Below, piece after piece: positions 2,663-13,674 of a stretch of 64,000 bases of DNA; positions within the stretch are counted from its first letter, which is position 1, and every line of letters starts with the position of its first letter. A program made the position numbers and the translations under genes. The notes under the pieces were generated by a model. That model had not been told where the DNA came from. It ran no database searches and saw only the letters and a program-made list of their open reading frames with translations. Source of the stretch: Natronolimnobius sp. AArcel1 (lineage in GTDB: Archaea; Halobacteriota; Halobacteria; Halobacteriales; Natrialbaceae); the NCBI RefSeq assembly GCF_011043775.1, contig NZ_JAAKXY010000002.1:744001-808000 (forward strand), given 5' to 3'.

Positions 2663-3481
2663 TTACTTGACGACGTGTTCCGTATCGTACGATCCCAGCC
2701 GGCGCACCCAGCCATTCTCCGCGAGCGCTTCAATCTCCTCGAGTGCGTCCTGCGTTCGCGTCTCGTACAGGCCGGCCTCGATATCGATGTGGAAGACGTA
2801 ATCGCCCAGTCGCTGGCCGCTCGGGCGCGACTCGACGCGGGCCATGTTGATATCGCGCTCGGCGAAGGGCTCGAGCATCTCGAGCAAGAGCCCGGGGTAG
2901 TCAACGTCGGGGTAGACGACGAGCGAGGTCTTGCCGCCGCCACTCGAGCGCGCGTCGGTCGGCGCGATGGCGAAGAAGCGGGTCGCGTTCGAGTCCTGAT
3001 CCTGAATATCCTCCGCGAGCACCTCGAGATTCGTTCCGTTCTCGGAATTTGCGGGGTGGCCGATTCCTGCCACCGACGGATCGTCGCGGGCGAACTCGAC
3101 GCCCTGGGCCGTGCTTGCGACGGCCTCGAGCGTCGCGTCCGGGAACTCTCGCTCGAGGTAGGATCGACACTGTGCGAGTGCCTGGGAGTGGCTGGCGATG
3201 GTGTCGAAGCCTTCACCCTGGGCGAGTAAGGCGTGGCGGATCGGCGTGACGATTTCGCGGACGACGGCGACGTCGTACTCTGCGAGCGCGTCCAGACTCT
3301 CCGTGACGGAGCCTTCGATACTGTTCTCGATAGGAATCACGCCGCGGTCGTACTCGCCGGTCGCGACGGCGTCGACGATTGCCGTCACCGACTGGCGGAA
3401 ATCGATTTCGCCGTCATCAGCGACTGCCGTCGTCGCGCGATGCGAATAGGTCCCTTCAGGTCCGAGCGTCACTGCAGTCAT
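2663..3481 (-). CDS. pheA: Prephenate dehydratase
   Basis: It converts prephenate to phenylpyruvate in phenylalanine synthesis. The 272 residues hold an N-terminal periplasmic-binding-like catalytic domain (GPEGTYSHRA at the start, IPIENSIEGSV near 50-60, and the catalytic NATRFF motif near 167-172). An ACT domain follows, with ESRPSGQRLGDYVFHID, the phenylalanine-binding signature for feedback inhibition. It is a monofunctional enzyme with no fused chorismate mutase, as is common in archaea. An AAAAG-type TATA element near 3508 gives a short leader. pheST lies 1.2 kb away. Confidence 0.95.
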   Translation of the reverse strand: MTAVTLGPEGTYSHRATTAVADDGEIDFRQSVTAIVDAVATGEYDRGVIPIENSIEGSVTESLDALAEYDVAVVREIVTPIRHALLAQGEGFDTIASHSQALAQCRSYLEREFPDATLEAVASTAQGVEFARDDPSVAGIGHPANSENGTNLEVLAEDIQDQDSNATRFFAIAPTDARSSGGGKTSLVVYPDVDYPGLLLEMLEPFAERDINMARVESRPSGQRLGDYVFHIDIEAGLYETRTQDALEEIEALAENGWVRRLGSYDTEHVVK

Positions 3482-4671: not shown

Positions 4672-6495
4672 TCAGCGCAGTGCCGCGAGATCGAACTCGA
4701 AGCCTGCTACGGGCACCTCGAGGTCGTGCTCGACGAGCACCTTTGGATGTACCTCGCCGATGACGCCGACTTCCTCGCCATCGATGACGACGCTCGCCGT
4801 TCGACCCGAAATGTAGGTGGGGTGTTCCGTCGGCGGCGTCTCGAGGTCGACATCGAACTTGCGACAGAGCGCCTGCAGGCGCGCTTTGGCGTCCTCGTAG
4901 CCCGCATCGTGGCTTGCGAGGACGGCACCGACGCGGCGGCGTTCCGTAACGCCAGTATTTTCGCTTTCATCGACTTCAGCGGTGAACCCGATTTCCGCGA
5001 GATCCTGCGGGTACGCGCGGTGGGTGTTGCGCTCTAAGACCATCAATAGTGATGGCGTGACCCATGTCCGAAGCATGGTGAAGTCCTCGCTGTAGGGGCC
5101 TTTGATCGTCGCTGGCTTGCCCGCGCCGTAGACATCGTCGTCGGGCGAGACGTCGACGCGCTCGTAGTTCTCCTCCTCGCTGATCATGTGGAAGTTCAGC
5201 AGATCCTCGAAGCCGAGGCCGACGAGTTGCTCGCGGACGGATCGCTCGAGGCGAGAGCGCTCGTGGCGGCCACCGACGGTTCCCACGTCGGGATAGCGCG
5301 GCTCGAGTTCGTTGAACCCGTAGGCGCGCCCGAGGTCGTCGATGACGTCCAGCGGATGAAGGACGTCGACGCGGTACGGTGGGATCGTGACGTCGTAGAC
5401 GAGAGTGTCTGTTGGCGCGTCGCCGCCAGCCTGCGTCTCGCCCGAACCGTCTGGGGTGTCGCGTTCCTCGAGTCCATCTCGATCCGCAAGCGGTGTGATG
5501 GTGCTCTCGTCTTCATCTGTCTCTCCGTCCGTGCGTTTCGTGGCGTCGAGTCCCGACCGTTCGGCCAGATCAATCACGTCCTCGGGGTCGAGATCAATGC
5601 CAAGAATGGTCTCGATTCGACTGTGGGCGACCGTCTTCGTCTTCGTGGAGAGATCCGGCCGAACGAGTTCGTGATCTGGATAGTTGACCGTGACCTCCTC
5701 GATGGTTGCGCCGCGCGCCGCGAGGGCGTAGCAGACGATGTTCAGCATCTTATCAATCGTCCACTGGTCCGTGCCGGTCATCTCGACGAACAGGTCTCTC
5801 GAGTCGGTCGTGACCTCGGTGCGCCGGCCGTTGATCACCGGCGGGAACGAGAACAGCCCGAGATCGTCGTAGATCGCTGGGTAGCGCTCGTACTCACTGA
5901 CGAGGTCGGCGTAGGTCTGGCCGGTCTGGTGGTCCTCGAGAACGCCTGCGGGCGACATCTCGTCGTTCGAATCGAGTGGGACGAATGTGTCTTCTTCAGG
6001 TTCGACGCCGACGTACTCGATGGTTGGGTTGCCCTCGGTGGGCGCAGTCCCTTTTATCATCGTCAGGTCGTGAATCCCAATCGCGCCCTTCGCGCGCTTG
6101 CGCCCCATCGTCGCGTGCAGTTTCTCCTGTAACTGGATGAGCGAGTCGAGGCTGTCCTCGTCGAGGTTCACGTCGCGGATGATCGCCCCAGTGACGTACG
6201 GGCGCTCCTCGGGGACGGAGTCAGCGACCTCGATGGTCCACTCGGCCGAGTTCGTCGAGGGAACGTGCACACCTCGAGAGTCGCCGTACTGGTAGCCAAG
6301 CGAGCGGGCGACGCCTTCGACCGAGAGCCGGTCGAGACGGTCCGGCGCGAACTCGAGTTCGAACGCACCGTCTTCGGTTCGACCTTCGAACTCGAGGCCG
6401 AGGCCGAACAGGTCCTCCTTGAGTTGCTCGTCGTCCGTGTCGTCGCGGTCGGTCAGCGCACGCAGTTCGTCAGGGTCGATATCGACAGTGGGCAT
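4672..6495 (-). CDS. pheT: Phenylalanyl-tRNA synthetase beta subunit
   Basis: This is the beta subunit of the alpha2-beta2 enzyme that charges tRNA-Phe. The 607 residues follow the archaeal/eukaryal form without the bacterial N-terminal OB-domain. They include the B3/B4 editing region, the B5 domain and the catalytic-like fold with LERNTHRAYPQDLAEIG. Near residues 320-360 there is a long acidic insertion (between the segment ending in GLDATKR and DTLVYDVTIPPYRVD) that looks disordered and may be a haloarchaeal addition. It overlaps the pheS stop by one base, so the two are translationally coupled. Confidence 0.96.
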   Translation of the reverse strand: MPTVDIDPDELRALTDRDDTDDEQLKEDLFGLGLEFEGRTEDGAFELEFAPDRLDRLSVEGVARSLGYQYGDSRGVHVPSTNSAEWTIEVADSVPEERPYVTGAIIRDVNLDEDSLDSLIQLQEKLHATMGRKRAKGAIGIHDLTMIKGTAPTEGNPTIEYVGVEPEEDTFVPLDSNDEMSPAGVLEDHQTGQTYADLVSEYERYPAIYDDLGLFSFPPVINGRRTEVTTDSRDLFVEMTGTDQWTIDKMLNIVCYALAARGATIEEVTVNYPDHELVRPDLSTKTKTVAHSRIETILGIDLDPEDVIDLAERSGLDATKRTDGETDEDESTITPLADRDGLEERDTPDGSGETQAGGDAPTDTLVYDVTIPPYRVDVLHPLDVIDDLGRAYGFNELEPRYPDVGTVGGRHERSRLERSVREQLVGLGFEDLLNFHMISEEENYERVDVSPDDDVYGAGKPATIKGPYSEDFTMLRTWVTPSLLMVLERNTHRAYPQDLAEIGFTAEVDESENTGVTERRRVGAVLASHDAGYEDAKARLQALCRKFDVDLETPPTEHPTYISGRTASVVIDGEEVGVIGEVHPKVLVEHDLEVPVAGFEFDLAALR

Positions 6496-8021
6496 CAGTA
6501 GGTCACCTCCGTGTTGCGAAGCAGATCCAGATCACACAGCGTGCCGTGGATGTCGCGAATGTCCTCGAAGCCGTACATCAGCATGAGCAGGCGCTCGAGA
6601 GCGAGTCCCCAGGCCATCACGTCGCACTCCACGCCGAGTGGCTCGAGCATCTCCTCGCGGAAAATACCGGAGTTGCCGATTTCGACCAACTCGCCCGTTG
6701 TCGGATGCGTGCCGAACAGCTCGAAGCTTGGCTCGGTGTAGGGGTTGTAGTGGGGTTTGAACTGGATGTCCGTGATGCCGAACTGGGCGTAAAACTCCTC
6801 GAAGGTGCCCATCAGATCGCGCACGGAGAGGTCCTTAGCCATCACCCAGCCCTCGATCTGGAAGAACTCGAGCAAGTGAGTCGGATCGAGCGTATCGTTC
6901 CGGTACACCTTCTCGACGCTGAAGAAGCGTGCGGGCGGTTCAATCTCGCCGATTTCCTCACCCGAGAGATAGCGCGTCGACAGCGAGGTCGTGTGTCCCC
7001 GCAGCGCGAGCGCGCGGGCGAAGTCCTCGTCCCACGGCGAGTGATAGCCCTCGCCGTCCGGGCCGACGCCCTGGCGGTGTGCCTGCTCGACATCCGAGAC
7101 GAGCCCCTCGGGGAGGTCGTCGATGTGCGTCGGCTCCTCGAGTGCGAACCGATCCCAGTGCGTTCGTGCTGGGTGGTCCTGCGGCATGAACAGGCAGTCA
7201 TTGATCCAGAAGTCCGCATCGACGTGCGGGCCTTCCATCTCCTGAAAGCCCATCCCGACGAGGACGTCTTTGACGCGCTCGGCTGTCTGGCGCAGGATGT
7301 GGACGTTGCCGCCCTCGAAGCGCTCGGCGTCGGCTTCGACGTTGTATTCGGCGAACTCGACATCCTCCCACTCCCCGCTGGTCAGGAGTTCTGGCGTCAC
7401 CTGGCCGACAGTCTCGGCGGTCTCGAGACCGGCCATCAGTTCCGTCACGGCAAGTTCGGTTAGCGTCACCTCACGAACTGTTGTCTCCGAAATCTCGACG
7501 AGGCCGCGCCGCTCGAGTTGCTCGAGCGTCCCCTCGTCGATATCGACGCTATCGACGGGCGTCTCGTCTGCGCCCTCGAGTTCGGCGAGCGCGTTGGCCT
7601 CCGCGTCGGCTGTGGGGTCGGCGTCGGCATCTGCTGTAATCTCGCCGCTATCGATTACGCCGTAGCCCTTGCGCGCGTAGTTCGAGAGTGCGATGTCGAC
7701 GCCCGGCCCCTCGAGTCCCGACTGGCCGATAACTCGGCCCATCTGGGCTGGCTCGTCGTCCGCGCCGGCCTCGAGTGCGGCCTCGTAGAGCGTGATCTCG
7801 GGCAACTGGCTGTTGGCGTACTCGCTCCCTTCGTCGGTGAGTGTGAGCGTTTCGTCGACTCGTTCGGCGACGGCGACCAGCCCCTCGTCCTCGAGTTCGA
7901 AGACAGCGCCGGTGACGGTTTCCGGCGGGAGTTGGGTCGCCGCGGCGAGGGCGTCGACGGACTGTGCGTCGTCCGCGGTTGCGGCCTCCAAGACCGCGAC
8001 CTGTGATTCTGGAAGTTGCAT
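6495..8021 (-). CDS. pheS: Phenylalanyl-tRNA synthetase alpha subunit
   Basis: This is the catalytic subunit. The 508 residues start with winged-helix modules (about 1-200), typical of archaeal/eukaryal alpha subunits, followed by the class II core. Class II features seen are FMPQDHPARTHWD (motif 1 region), RYLSGEEIGEIEPPARFF and VEKVYRND (motif 2), the Phe pocket LEFFQIEGWVMAKD, and GLALERLLMLMYG (motif 3). The ATG at 8021 follows a leader of about 235 bases, unusual for a haloarchaeal gene. That leader holds a Phe-rich mini-ORF and hairpins and probably regulates the operon. Confidence 0.96.
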   Translation of the reverse strand: MQLPESQVAVLEAATADDAQSVDALAAATQLPPETVTGAVFELEDEGLVAVAERVDETLTLTDEGSEYANSQLPEITLYEAALEAGADDEPAQMGRVIGQSGLEGPGVDIALSNYARKGYGVIDSGEITADADADPTADAEANALAELEGADETPVDSVDIDEGTLEQLERRGLVEISETTVREVTLTELAVTELMAGLETAETVGQVTPELLTSGEWEDVEFAEYNVEADAERFEGGNVHILRQTAERVKDVLVGMGFQEMEGPHVDADFWINDCLFMPQDHPARTHWDRFALEEPTHIDDLPEGLVSDVEQAHRQGVGPDGEGYHSPWDEDFARALALRGHTTSLSTRYLSGEEIGEIEPPARFFSVEKVYRNDTLDPTHLLEFFQIEGWVMAKDLSVRDLMGTFEEFYAQFGITDIQFKPHYNPYTEPSFELFGTHPTTGELVEIGNSGIFREEMLEPLGVECDVMAWGLALERLLMLMYGFEDIRDIHGTLCDLDLLRNTEVTY

Positions 8022-8257
8022 TCGCTTGGTTGAATGGCTGCGTGGGTGTCAGTTAGCGGTTCCGACTCGCACCGGCCGGCAGTTGGTGCACCGACCGACC
8101 GCACTCGAGCAGACGGTTTCGCCGCGTCGTCCCGATATGGGACCGTTGGACGCGAGTCCACCGTCTCGAGGCCGTTAGGCGAAGAAAAAGCCGAATCCCG
8201 GGTGTGTCTGCTGTGGCTGGCTGGCGACGCCTCCGGCGTGGGATTCGGGTGCCATGT
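8022..8257 (-). promoter_or_regulatory. pheST leader region, candidate attenuator
   Basis: Read on the minus strand, it opens with a Phe-rich 26-codon ORF (8255-8175) that holds a 9-bp stem (8240-8248 with 8191-8199), a nested 5-bp stem (8235-8239 with 8227-8231), and right after the outer stem CTTTTTCTTC. Between this and pheS a second bulged hairpin spans 8124-8153 (GCGTC and GTCCC pairing with GACGC and GGGAC). A stem plus T-run that also encodes Phe codons is the layout of an amino-acid attenuator. That it regulates pheST is inference. Confidence 0.5.
8175..8255 (-). CDS. Candidate phenylalanine leader peptide upstream of pheS
   Basis: A 26-codon ORF, MAPESHAGGV...THPGFGFFFA, starts with ATG at 8255 and ends in TAA at 8175. 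Four of its last six residues are Phe, coded TTC, TTT, TTC and TTC. A weak TATA-like element (GTTTTTGC, about 8279-8286) lies about 27 bases before the ATG, so the ORF would be leaderless. It lies 153 bases before pheS on the same strand. In bacteria such as E. coli a Phe-rich peptide (pheM) precedes pheST and senses charged tRNA-Phe. I know of no archaeal case. Chance or a different role cannot be excluded. Confidence 0.5.
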   Translation of the reverse strand: MAPESHAGGVASQPQQTHPGFGFFFA

Positions 8258-8354
8258 ACAGTCGATGTAAGCACGCGAGCAAAAACGTTGCGAGATAGTG
8301 GCAGACGAGACTCGTTGGCAAAGAACTAACCGACTCCCTGCGCCACTCGAGGCT

Positions 8355-10995: not shown

Positions 10996-12585
10996 TTACC
11001 GTCGGCGCGGTGACTCGAGTTCGATATCCGTCTCCTCGAGCAGGTCTTCGACTTCGTCGCGTTTCTCTTGGTGGTCTGCGAGGAACTTGCGCATGAGTTC
11101 GGCGGCTTGTTCCTTACAGCCGCCACAGAGGCGTTCGCCGCCGACACATTCGTCGTAGACCTCTTTGGCGAACTCGTCGTCGTCCCCGGCGAGCAGGTAG
11201 GCGTAGAGTTCGTAGACGGGACACTCGTCGGCTTTGCCGCCTTTCTCGCGCTGCTCCTCGGCGGTTTCGCGGCCGCCGGTAGTCGCGGCTTTCACTTTGT
11301 CGTAGCCGTCCTCGGGGTCGTCAAGCAAGGAGATGTGGCTCGCTGGGTTCGATGAGGACATTTTCCCGCCCGTCAGCCCAGTCATGAAGCGGTGGTAGAT
11401 CGACGACGGTGGCTGAAAGCCGTAGCCGCCGTTGTCGACTTCGATCTCCCGAGCCAACGCTTCGGCCGCAGCGCGGTCGATCTCAAAGGCGTCGATGTGG
11501 TTCTCGTAGACGCGCTTTTCGCCCTCGATGGCGTCGATCAGCGCGTCGAAGGCGTCCTCGGTCGCCCGCCGGTCGGAAAATCGCGTACGCGGCCGAACCG
11601 GCTCCATACCTGCCTCCTCGAGTTTCGTCAGGACTGAACTCAACGTGTCGGCGTCGGTCTCGAGGTCGGCAAGCGGCGTTTCGGCGAGCGCGTCAGCGAC
11701 GTGGGTACAGCGCAGTGTGTCGTCGTCGAAGTCGGCCGGATCGAGGTCATCGTAGAACGTCGCCACGAGGGCGCGTTCTGCGGGCTCGAGTTCGAAGCTG
11801 GCGTACGCTTCGCTGACCTTGAAGAATCGCATCCGTTCGGCGAGGTCCCTCGCTAGGCGGACGTGTGGATCCTGATCCGGGCCGACGGGGATGACGGTGG
11901 GTTTTGGCTCCTCGAGTTGTGGGTAGAGGATGTCTGCCATCTGGGTGACGACGGACTGCATGTGCGAAACGTCGGTCTCGCCGTCGAAGCCGTAGATGGC
12001 CTGAAACTCGGAGAAGTTGGCCTCAGCGCCGAGTTCGAAGGAAAGATCCTGTAGTTCGCGGTTTTCGGACTGACGATAGAGCGTTCCCTCTTCGGGGTCG
12101 AAGCCGAGTGCGAGCAACGAGAGCAGGTAGTCGCGGGCGTGTTCGTCGATCTCCTCCCAGCTCATGCCGCGAGCAGAGTTCGCCTCGAGATCGGCGATTA
12201 GGCCGTAGGCGTCTGCGCCTTGTTGCTGGTGCCAGATGATCTCGTCGAAGACGAGTTTGTGGCCGATGTGGGGGTCGCCGGTGGGCATGAATCCCGACAG
12301 GACAGCCGCTGGTTCGTCGTTTTGCAGTGCTTCGGCGACCGGGCGGTAGTCGCGGTGGCCGAAGATGACGCCCCGGCGCATCAGATAGTGCGGATTCGGC
12401 ACCTCCTCGAGGACCTCGTCGAACTCCTCGATGCCGAACTCCTCGAACAGTTTGCGGTAGTCGGAGACGGACGAGGATCCCCAGGGGTCCAGTGCAACGT
12501 CATCTGCTCCGGCGGCTCCTCCATCGGGTACTGGGGTCCCTGACTCGTTCGCAGTAGGCTCCTCGCGTGAATCGTCTCCGGTCAT
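10996..12585 (-). CDS. trpS: Tryptophanyl-tRNA synthetase
   Basis: This class I enzyme charges tRNA-Trp. The 529 residues from the ATG at 12585 include TGDPHIGH (the HIGH motif, about 103-109) and GGKMSSSN (the KMSKS motif). The archaeal/eukaryal-type core contains VPVGPDQDPHVRLARD-like elements, and a late cysteine cluster CVGGERLCGGC in the C-terminal domain probably binds metal. The first 40 residues are polar and acidic. An upstream in-frame start at 12840 was rejected because it runs through the moxR promoter region and adds basic, non-haloarchaeal sequence. Haloarchaea often carry two trpS genes. Which paralog this is cannot be told here. Confidence 0.94.
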   Translation of the reverse strand: MTGDDSREEPTANESGTPVPDGGAAGADDVALDPWGSSSVSDYRKLFEEFGIEEFDEVLEEVPNPHYLMRRGVIFGHRDYRPVAEALQNDEPAAVLSGFMPTGDPHIGHKLVFDEIIWHQQQGADAYGLIADLEANSARGMSWEEIDEHARDYLLSLLALGFDPEEGTLYRQSENRELQDLSFELGAEANFSEFQAIYGFDGETDVSHMQSVVTQMADILYPQLEEPKPTVIPVGPDQDPHVRLARDLAERMRFFKVSEAYASFELEPAERALVATFYDDLDPADFDDDTLRCTHVADALAETPLADLETDADTLSSVLTKLEEAGMEPVRPRTRFSDRRATEDAFDALIDAIEGEKRVYENHIDAFEIDRAAAEALAREIEVDNGGYGFQPPSSIYHRFMTGLTGGKMSSSNPASHISLLDDPEDGYDKVKAATTGGRETAEEQREKGGKADECPVYELYAYLLAGDDDEFAKEVYDECVGGERLCGGCKEQAAELMRKFLADHQEKRDEVEDLLEETDIELESPRRR

Positions 12586-12705
12586 TAGTTTCGTGTTGTG
12601 CGTCCGGTTCGCAAAAGCCTTCGCTTCTCGAGTCTCCGTGCCGTCCCGCCCTTCGTAAGCTCGGGTGCCAGTATCTTCATGTGACGGCGCGGACAACACC
12701 GACCG

Positions 12706-13674
12706 ATGGCAGATGACGGCGTCTCCGTCGGTACGGCAAGCGACACCTGCACCGAGGTCCTCTCTCGGATCAGCGACGCAGTAATTACGGACCGGGAATT
12801 TCTCGAGCACGTTCTCACCGCGGCGCTGGCTCGCGGGCATATCCTGCTCGAGGACGTCCCGGGGACGGGAAAGACGCTTACGGCAGTCACCGTCGCACAG
12901 GCGCTCGGCCTCGAGTTCTCCCGGATTCAGTTTACGCCGGACCTCCTGCCGAACGACATCACGGGCTCACACATTTTCAACGAACAAAGCGGCGAGTTCG
13001 AGTTCACGCCCGGGCCGGTCTTCGCAAACGTCGTGCTGGCCGACGAGATCAATCGTGCGCCGCCAAAGACGCAGGCCGCGCTGCTTGAAGCGATGGACGA
13101 GGGACAGGTTACCGTCGATGGGGAAACCCGCGACCTGCCGGACCCATTCTTGGTGATTGCGACGCAGAACCCGGTCGAACAGGAGGGCACGTTCGAACTC
13201 CCCGAAGCCCAGCGCGACCGCTTCATGATGAAGACCTCGATTGGGTATCCCGGCCGCGAGGGCGAACTCGAGTTGCTCGAGCGACGGAGCCAACGCGAGA
13301 CGAAGCTGCCGACGGTCGATCCGGTCCTCGACACGGCGGGCGTCCAAGACCTGCAGGCTGTCCCCGAGCGCATCTCGATGGCACCCGCTGTCCGTGAGTA
13401 TCTCGTCGACCTCGCTCGTGAGACGCGCGCGGATAGCCGTGTTGAGATCGGCATCTCCCCGCGCGGGATTCAGCGCTACTACGAGGCTGCTCGAGCCAGA
13501 GCGACGCTCGAGGGGCGAGAGTACGTTGCACCGGACGATATCAAGCGAATCGCCGAGCCGATGATGCAACATCGACTTGTGTTGACTACGGATGCCAGAA
13601 TCGAGGGCGTCGACGGCGTGAGTGTCGTCCGCGACGTGTTGAACCGCGTCGAAGTGCCGGCGGTCGATCCGTAA
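12706..13674 (+). CDS. MoxR-family AAA+ ATPase
   Basis: The product has 322 residues. Walker A is VPGTGKT (51-57), Walker B is VLADEINRAPPKTQAALLEAM, and sensor 1 follows in IATQNPVEQEGTFELPEAQRDRF, all typical of MoxR. MoxR ATPases act as chaperones that mature partner complexes or insert cofactors. They usually sit beside DUF58 and von Willebrand or DUF4129 proteins. Here the gene is convergent with, not co-transcribed with, the DUF58 operon on the opposite strand. It ends 11 bases from the end of that operon. Confidence 0.93.
   Translation: MADDGVSVGTASDTCTEVLSRISDAVITDREFLEHVLTAALARGHILLEDVPGTGKTLTAVTVAQALGLEFSRIQFTPDLLPNDITGSHIFNEQSGEFEFTPGPVFANVVLADEINRAPPKTQAALLEAMDEGQVTVDGETRDLPDPFLVIATQNPVEQEGTFELPEAQRDRFMMKTSIGYPGREGELELLERRSQRETKLPTVDPVLDTAGVQDLQAVPERISMAPAVREYLVDLARETRADSRVEIGISPRGIQRYYEAARARATLEGREYVAPDDIKRIAEPMMQHRLVLTTDARIEGVDGVSVVRDVLNRVEVPAVDP

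Follow-up and report, generated by a model that had tools for sequence, protein, structure and literature searches.

What does a phenylalanine-rich open reading frame (ORF) do just ahead of the phenylalanine-tRNA ligase operon of a haloarchaeon? Leader-peptide attenuation, familiar from textbooks as a mechanism of bacteria, requires coupled transcription and translation, and Escherichia coli pheST is controlled in this way by the pheM attenuator, with its Phe-rich peptide, hairpin and U-run. Here, we propose that the haloarchaeal pheST leader works like bacterial leader-peptide attenuation, a kind of control to which it may belong. The window is the whole stretch of 64,000 nucleotides from Natronolimnobius sp. 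AArcel1, and coordinates refer to it. A preliminary description had placed a 26-codon ORF ending PGFGFFFA on the minus strand, 153 bases upstream of pheS. The ORF is present as claimed, and the position given for it (8175-8257) is right at the 3' end and extends 2 nt too far at the 5' end, as its ATG lies at 8255-8253, its TAA at 8177-8175 and the ATG of pheS, 153 nt further on, at 8021. That description rightly recognised leader, stem and T-run; it overlooked a second RNA element (SL2), a promoter-like element close to pheS and a parallel case at trpS. The features that carry the argument are these:

8255 to 8175, minus strand: leader ORF pheL, 26 codons, MAPESHAGGVASQPQQTHPGFGFFFA and stop, with homologues at 72 of 82 pheS loci
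6495 to 8021, minus strand: pheS, phenylalanine-tRNA ligase alpha subunit, from homologues and a match to the NCBIfam PheS model
4672 to 6495, minus strand: pheT, beta subunit, identified by sequence and position, its start overlapping the stop of pheS
8280 to 8292, minus strand: predicted promoter P1, BRE/TATA-like, CGCAACGTTTTTG, with a predicted transcription start site (TSS) at the leader ATG or 1-3 nt before it
8240 to 8248, minus strand: 5' arm of stem SL1, CCGAATCCC, in codons 3-6
8191 to 8199, minus strand: 3' arm of SL1, GGGATTCGG, holding the first Phe codon TTC and covarying with the 5' arm
8181 to 8189, minus strand: Phe codons TTT TTC TTC, forming the T-run (TTTTTC at 8189-8184) after SL1

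The neighbourhood has an aromatic flavour of its own: downstream of pheT there is a gene for a prephenate dehydratase domain (pheA, 2960-3469), and upstream of pheS a second type of trpS (10996-12840), which together with pheST make a loose aromatic amino-acid cluster. Scans for a cognate leader of pheA or of this second trpS type near pheST found none.

How widespread is the leader? Our sample of 82 pheS loci comprised 80 from other Halobacteria, one from a genome of the same genus and the window itself. The homologous ORFs lie 103-245 nt upstream of pheS and share the consensus M-x-x-E-[SP]...GFGFFFA. The leader is absent or broken at 9 of the 82 loci, and its presence switches 6 times along the PheS tree. 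Outside the 72, it is altered at L030, frameshifted at L057, decayed at L061 and missing from the remainder. A frame-blind DNA pattern for it matched 164 of 394 Halobacteria genomes and 50 of 86 genera, nearly always with one match each; the reversed-pattern control had no match in any genome listed. Counts across species, here and above, are not phylogenetically independent. A similar scan of pheS upstream regions in other families of the phylum, outside Halobacteria, gave 1 Phe-rich ORF in 70, at -613, which is a chance match. Upstream of hisS, leuS, pheA, thrS and trpE in Halobacteria, a scan for at least 3 Phe per 7 residues found nothing in 113 regions, and cognate-rich leaders of these genes were likewise lacking. 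Failure of the ORF, its Phe run or the stem to be conserved in close relatives had been named as grounds for abandoning the idea, and all three are conserved.

The locus L061, of Halomicrobium katesii (upstream of 3001), is a natural decay case in which the start ATG has become ACG, two Phe codons have become Leu (GLGFLFA) and the usual stop is missing, while SL2 is still recognisable. A contig titled Candidatus Pacearchaeota (L015, PWGL01000012.1) also carries a haloarchaeal pheS with leader, at 85% identity, and is probably mis-binned.

The reading frame is itself under constraint. The distance between the arms of SL1 varies from 43 to 112 nt, and in the frame-blind scan this spacing keeps, with few exceptions, one frame with the ATG 8 nt upstream. 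Along the PheS tree about 29 changes of leader length are all in frame (72 loci), a tally that drew on leaders selected as ORFs, so the frame-blind scan is the unbiased test. The Phe codons on either side of Gly (positions 2 and 4 of GFGFFF) encode Phe in 72 of 72 leaders. The preliminary description had suggested weighing the Phe codons against synonymous change, and on that test Phe is retained while the third base alternates, with TTC in 52 and TTT in 20 leaders at the second Gly-flanking codon. Comparative evidence of this kind strongly supports translation of pheL. Beyond its stem-coding and Phe parts the peptide is poorly conserved, and searches of Pfam and NCBIfam with the pheS and trpS leader peptides returned no family.

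Translation would begin at the very 5' end of the message. Counted from the leader ATG, position -37 is C, -34/-33 are A and -29 to -26 are T with hardly any variation among the 72 loci, and the P1 motif C-G-[CG]-A-A-C-G-[TC]-TTTT stands at a fixed distance from that ATG at almost all of them, so that the mRNA should begin at the leader ATG and be leaderless. The fixed promoter spacing thus supports the earlier suggestion of a plausible leaderless start.

In SL1, 98.3% of cells across the alignment pair over 9 bp, as against 13-65% for slid partners. Compensatory changes (TCC/GGA, CCC/GGG, CTC/GAC, AGC/GCG, and GAC with a C-ending codon) alter the peptide in step, and the most variable pair has changed 6-8 times per side on the PheS tree. 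Such covariation strongly supports SL1 as a real RNA structure. The stem had been described as running directly into TTTTTC; the stem holds, and one C (8190) intervenes. That the Phe codons double as the T-run was borne out, and the T-run is retained beyond what Phe requires: TTT makes up 30% (58/195) of the Phe codons that SL1 abuts against 3.8% in pheS and pheT of the same loci (odds 10.8, about 8-fold), Val in place of Phe is encoded by GTT in 9 of 9 cases, and the longest leader T-run averages 4.1 against 2.8 simulated. The TTT excess and the use of GTT for Val argue that T-richness is selected besides Phe identity; alternatively, TTT could be enriched as a rare codon that is read slowly. 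Since the longest T-run is 3 or shorter in 28 of 71 leaders, a simple intrinsic terminator of bacterial type is not general. No conserved antiterminator or helix competing with SL1 was found at pheST. As one candidate we considered competition of the SL1 3' arm (GGRTTCG) with the SL2 strand CGAAACC and rejected it, because there is one fixed mismatch and covariation was not seen.

Are leader and operon transcribed together? In the dRNA-seq TSS map of Haloferax volcanii by Babski et al. (2016), which reports small ORFs in 5'-UTRs of 150-250 nt (PMC4983044, Table 2), pheS (HVO_2948) has a 26-aa upstream ORF (uORF) in its 5'-UTR with the TSS mapped upstream of it, and the tryptophan-tRNA ligase gene HVO_A0127 has a 23-aa uORF. 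Very probably these uORFs are the pheS and trpS leaders described here. Table 2 lists no additional TSS for either main gene. The uORFs are given there by length and mass; the section that reports them does not mention cognate codons, structures, conservation or attenuation, and free-standing micropeptide genes are proposed for some uORFs. Transcripts of pheS starting downstream of 8175 would have spoken against a leader, and the TSS of this relative, lying upstream of the uORF, supports transcription of the leader within the pheS 5'-UTR, on one mRNA with the operon.

Between the leader and pheS lie two further elements:

8109 to 8168, minus strand: RNA element SL2, whose internal loop is GGYGRA / CGAAACCG and whose inner hairpin varies
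8048 to 8065, minus strand: promoter-like element P2, TCGGAACCGCTAACTGAC, BRE/TATA-like, 27-44 nt upstream of the pheS ATG

The 18 pairs of SL2 are formed in 90.9% of cells, with 93 double-change cells against 28.7 in shuffled alignments, and none of 500 shuffles reached its score. The helices covary freely around the invariant internal loop. SL2 is predicted to fold alone, with no predicted competition with SL1 or the pheS start, and a kink-turn was rejected, since the loop misfits and position 11 can be A. In a genome search its single significant match is the one at pheS (E 1.6e-7). P2 is highly conserved, persists at loci without the leader and is probably a second promoter, one that might bypass the leader.

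In light of these constraints, how might the leader act? That pheL is a translated Phe-codon leader regulating pheST in cis we regard as very likely; the complete model, ribosome-mediated attenuation through stalling at the cognate Phe codons, is probable, and for transcription termination as its output we would give about even chances. RNA polymerase would start at P1, and a ribosome would load onto the leaderless 5' end of an mRNA beginning at the leader AUG. With Phe-tRNA plentiful, the ribosome would clear the Phe codons and be released one or a few codons further on, SL1 would form beside the U-rich tract, and transcription would stop or pause there by U-tract/aCPSF1-FttA termination, both U-tracts and aCPSF1/FttA being known in archaeal termination (PMC8716108, PMC8116511). 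With Phe-tRNA scarce, a ribosome stalled on the Phe codons would cover the SL1 3' arm and the U-tract, and transcription would proceed via SL2 into pheST, with P2 supplying a basal level. We infer the response to Phe, the stalling, which way the switch works and that its output is termination.

Other readings of the same elements have to be weighed. That the ORF is there by chance, as its shortness and GC-rich surroundings might suggest, is refuted by conservation, frame retention, SL1 covariation and the control scans, and can practically be dismissed. More substantial, though still rather unlikely, is a translational version of the mechanism, in which a ribosome stalled on the leader alters folding of the spacer from SL2 onward, or reinitiation, and so controls pheS translation. 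It fits with leader and pheS sharing one mRNA, as the Haloferax volcanii map indicates, with the position of SL2 just 3' of the leader stop and with the start region of pheS, which has no obvious Shine-Dalgarno sequence; yet SL2 is predicted to fold alone rather than against SL1 or the pheS start, and the T-run bias would require a separate cause.

SL2 could also be a binding site through which PheRS, or another protein, controls the operon, with the leader a minor modifier. An invariant loop amid covarying helices resembles a protein or ligand site, and the lone significant copy in the genome adjoins pheS; such autoregulation leaves the conserved frame and Phe codons unexplained, and we consider it distinctly unlikely as the main control. 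Less probable again, to the point of being improbable, is a free-standing micropeptide gene that has its own terminator in SL1 and the T-run and stands by chance before a P2-driven pheST. The survival of a P2-like element at leaderless loci agrees with it, as does the micropeptide reading that Babski et al. propose for some uORFs (PMC4983044). Against it are the presence of cognate codons, for Phe and for Trp, before a synthetase gene in two separate cases, a peptide poorly conserved outside the parts that encode stem and Phe, and the lack of an additional TSS for Haloferax volcanii pheS in the published table.

The proposed attenuation at the Phe codons has bacterial parallels. As at Escherichia coli pheM-pheST, a Phe-rich leader with hairpin and U-run precedes pheS, and induction would be expected when Phe-tRNA is scarce; in contrast, the haloarchaeal leader has a leaderless start with an archaeal promoter and polymerase, its Phe codons reach into the 3' arm of the hairpin and themselves make the U-run, and the locus shows the additional SL2 rather than a conserved antiterminator. 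With the bacterial pheST T-box of Rfam it would share control of a synthetase operon in cis by tRNA charging, whereas the haloarchaeal sensor would be a translated ORF; the pheS leader region of the window matched no Rfam family, T-box included, at gathering or permissive thresholds.

The literature that we searched, mostly without subscription papers, contains no report of leader-peptide attenuation in archaea, in agreement with the preliminary description, which knew of none. A review on archaeal transcription-translation coupling mentions neither attenuation nor leader peptides, and a tool paper states in passing that uORF attenuation occurs in archaea too, with no archaeal example in the passages available. 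The mechanism is thus apparently undescribed for this domain. If true, this would bring leader-peptide attenuation to light in Archaea for the first time and provide evidence for functional transcription-translation coupling there. With a class-wide, covarying case that has cognate codons at two synthetase genes, both coupling and the regulation of premature termination can be tested directly in the genetically tractable Haloferax, and the leaders would supply a role for uORFs already mapped in Haloferax volcanii.

The second synthetase gene is an accessory trpS. A leader with Trp codons precedes one of the two trpS types, in this genome MTAALEWQWRWPPSSRADSIVAAGDAA (L284; pattern match G000:C2:355192-355239; also L333), outside the window, with its Trp codons inside a stem CCGCTCYC / GRGAGCGG. 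Among loci of the leader-bearing type, 11 of 13 were found by scan and L279 and L282 by eye, with one Trp each. The pattern matched 22 of 117 genomes in 13 genera, with no control matches, and spans six families of Halobacteria as well as Haloferax plasmids (L389, L390), on two of which the leader is 23 aa long; tblastn placed trpS downstream of the Trp leaders examined. Stem arms pair better within a species (-20.9 kcal/mol) than across species (-17.3) or when shuffled (-10.3). On these comparisons, the trpS leader is an independent parallel to pheST, with Trp codons and a covarying stem.

As in the trpL/trpEDCBA attenuator, the Trp codons lie between stem arms and a stalled ribosome would mask one of them, here the 5' arm, preventing the leader stem; unlike trpL, the haloarchaeal leader is leaderless and stands ahead of trpS, not trp biosynthesis genes, and its 2:3 pairing is possible but statistically unsupported. 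Such a competing downstream helix folds in 36 of 36 constrained models; as a candidate it was set aside, as its 7-11 bp in one register have a mean energy of -12.4 against -11.1 for shuffles and show no gain over cross-species pairs. It is an evenly balanced proposition that Halobacteria evolved a ribosome-mediated attenuation of their own, serving synthetase genes (pheST and accessory trpS), in which the stalled ribosome would hide a U-rich tract from RNA polymerase and aCPSF1/FttA, directly at pheST and possibly via an alternative helix at trpS. Two plasmid copies of trpS (L391 and L392, in Haloprofundus and Natrinema) retain the stem arms with a possible GTG leader start, a stop inside the loop and one Trp, the candidate leader of L391 being MSTSPETDERLWR.
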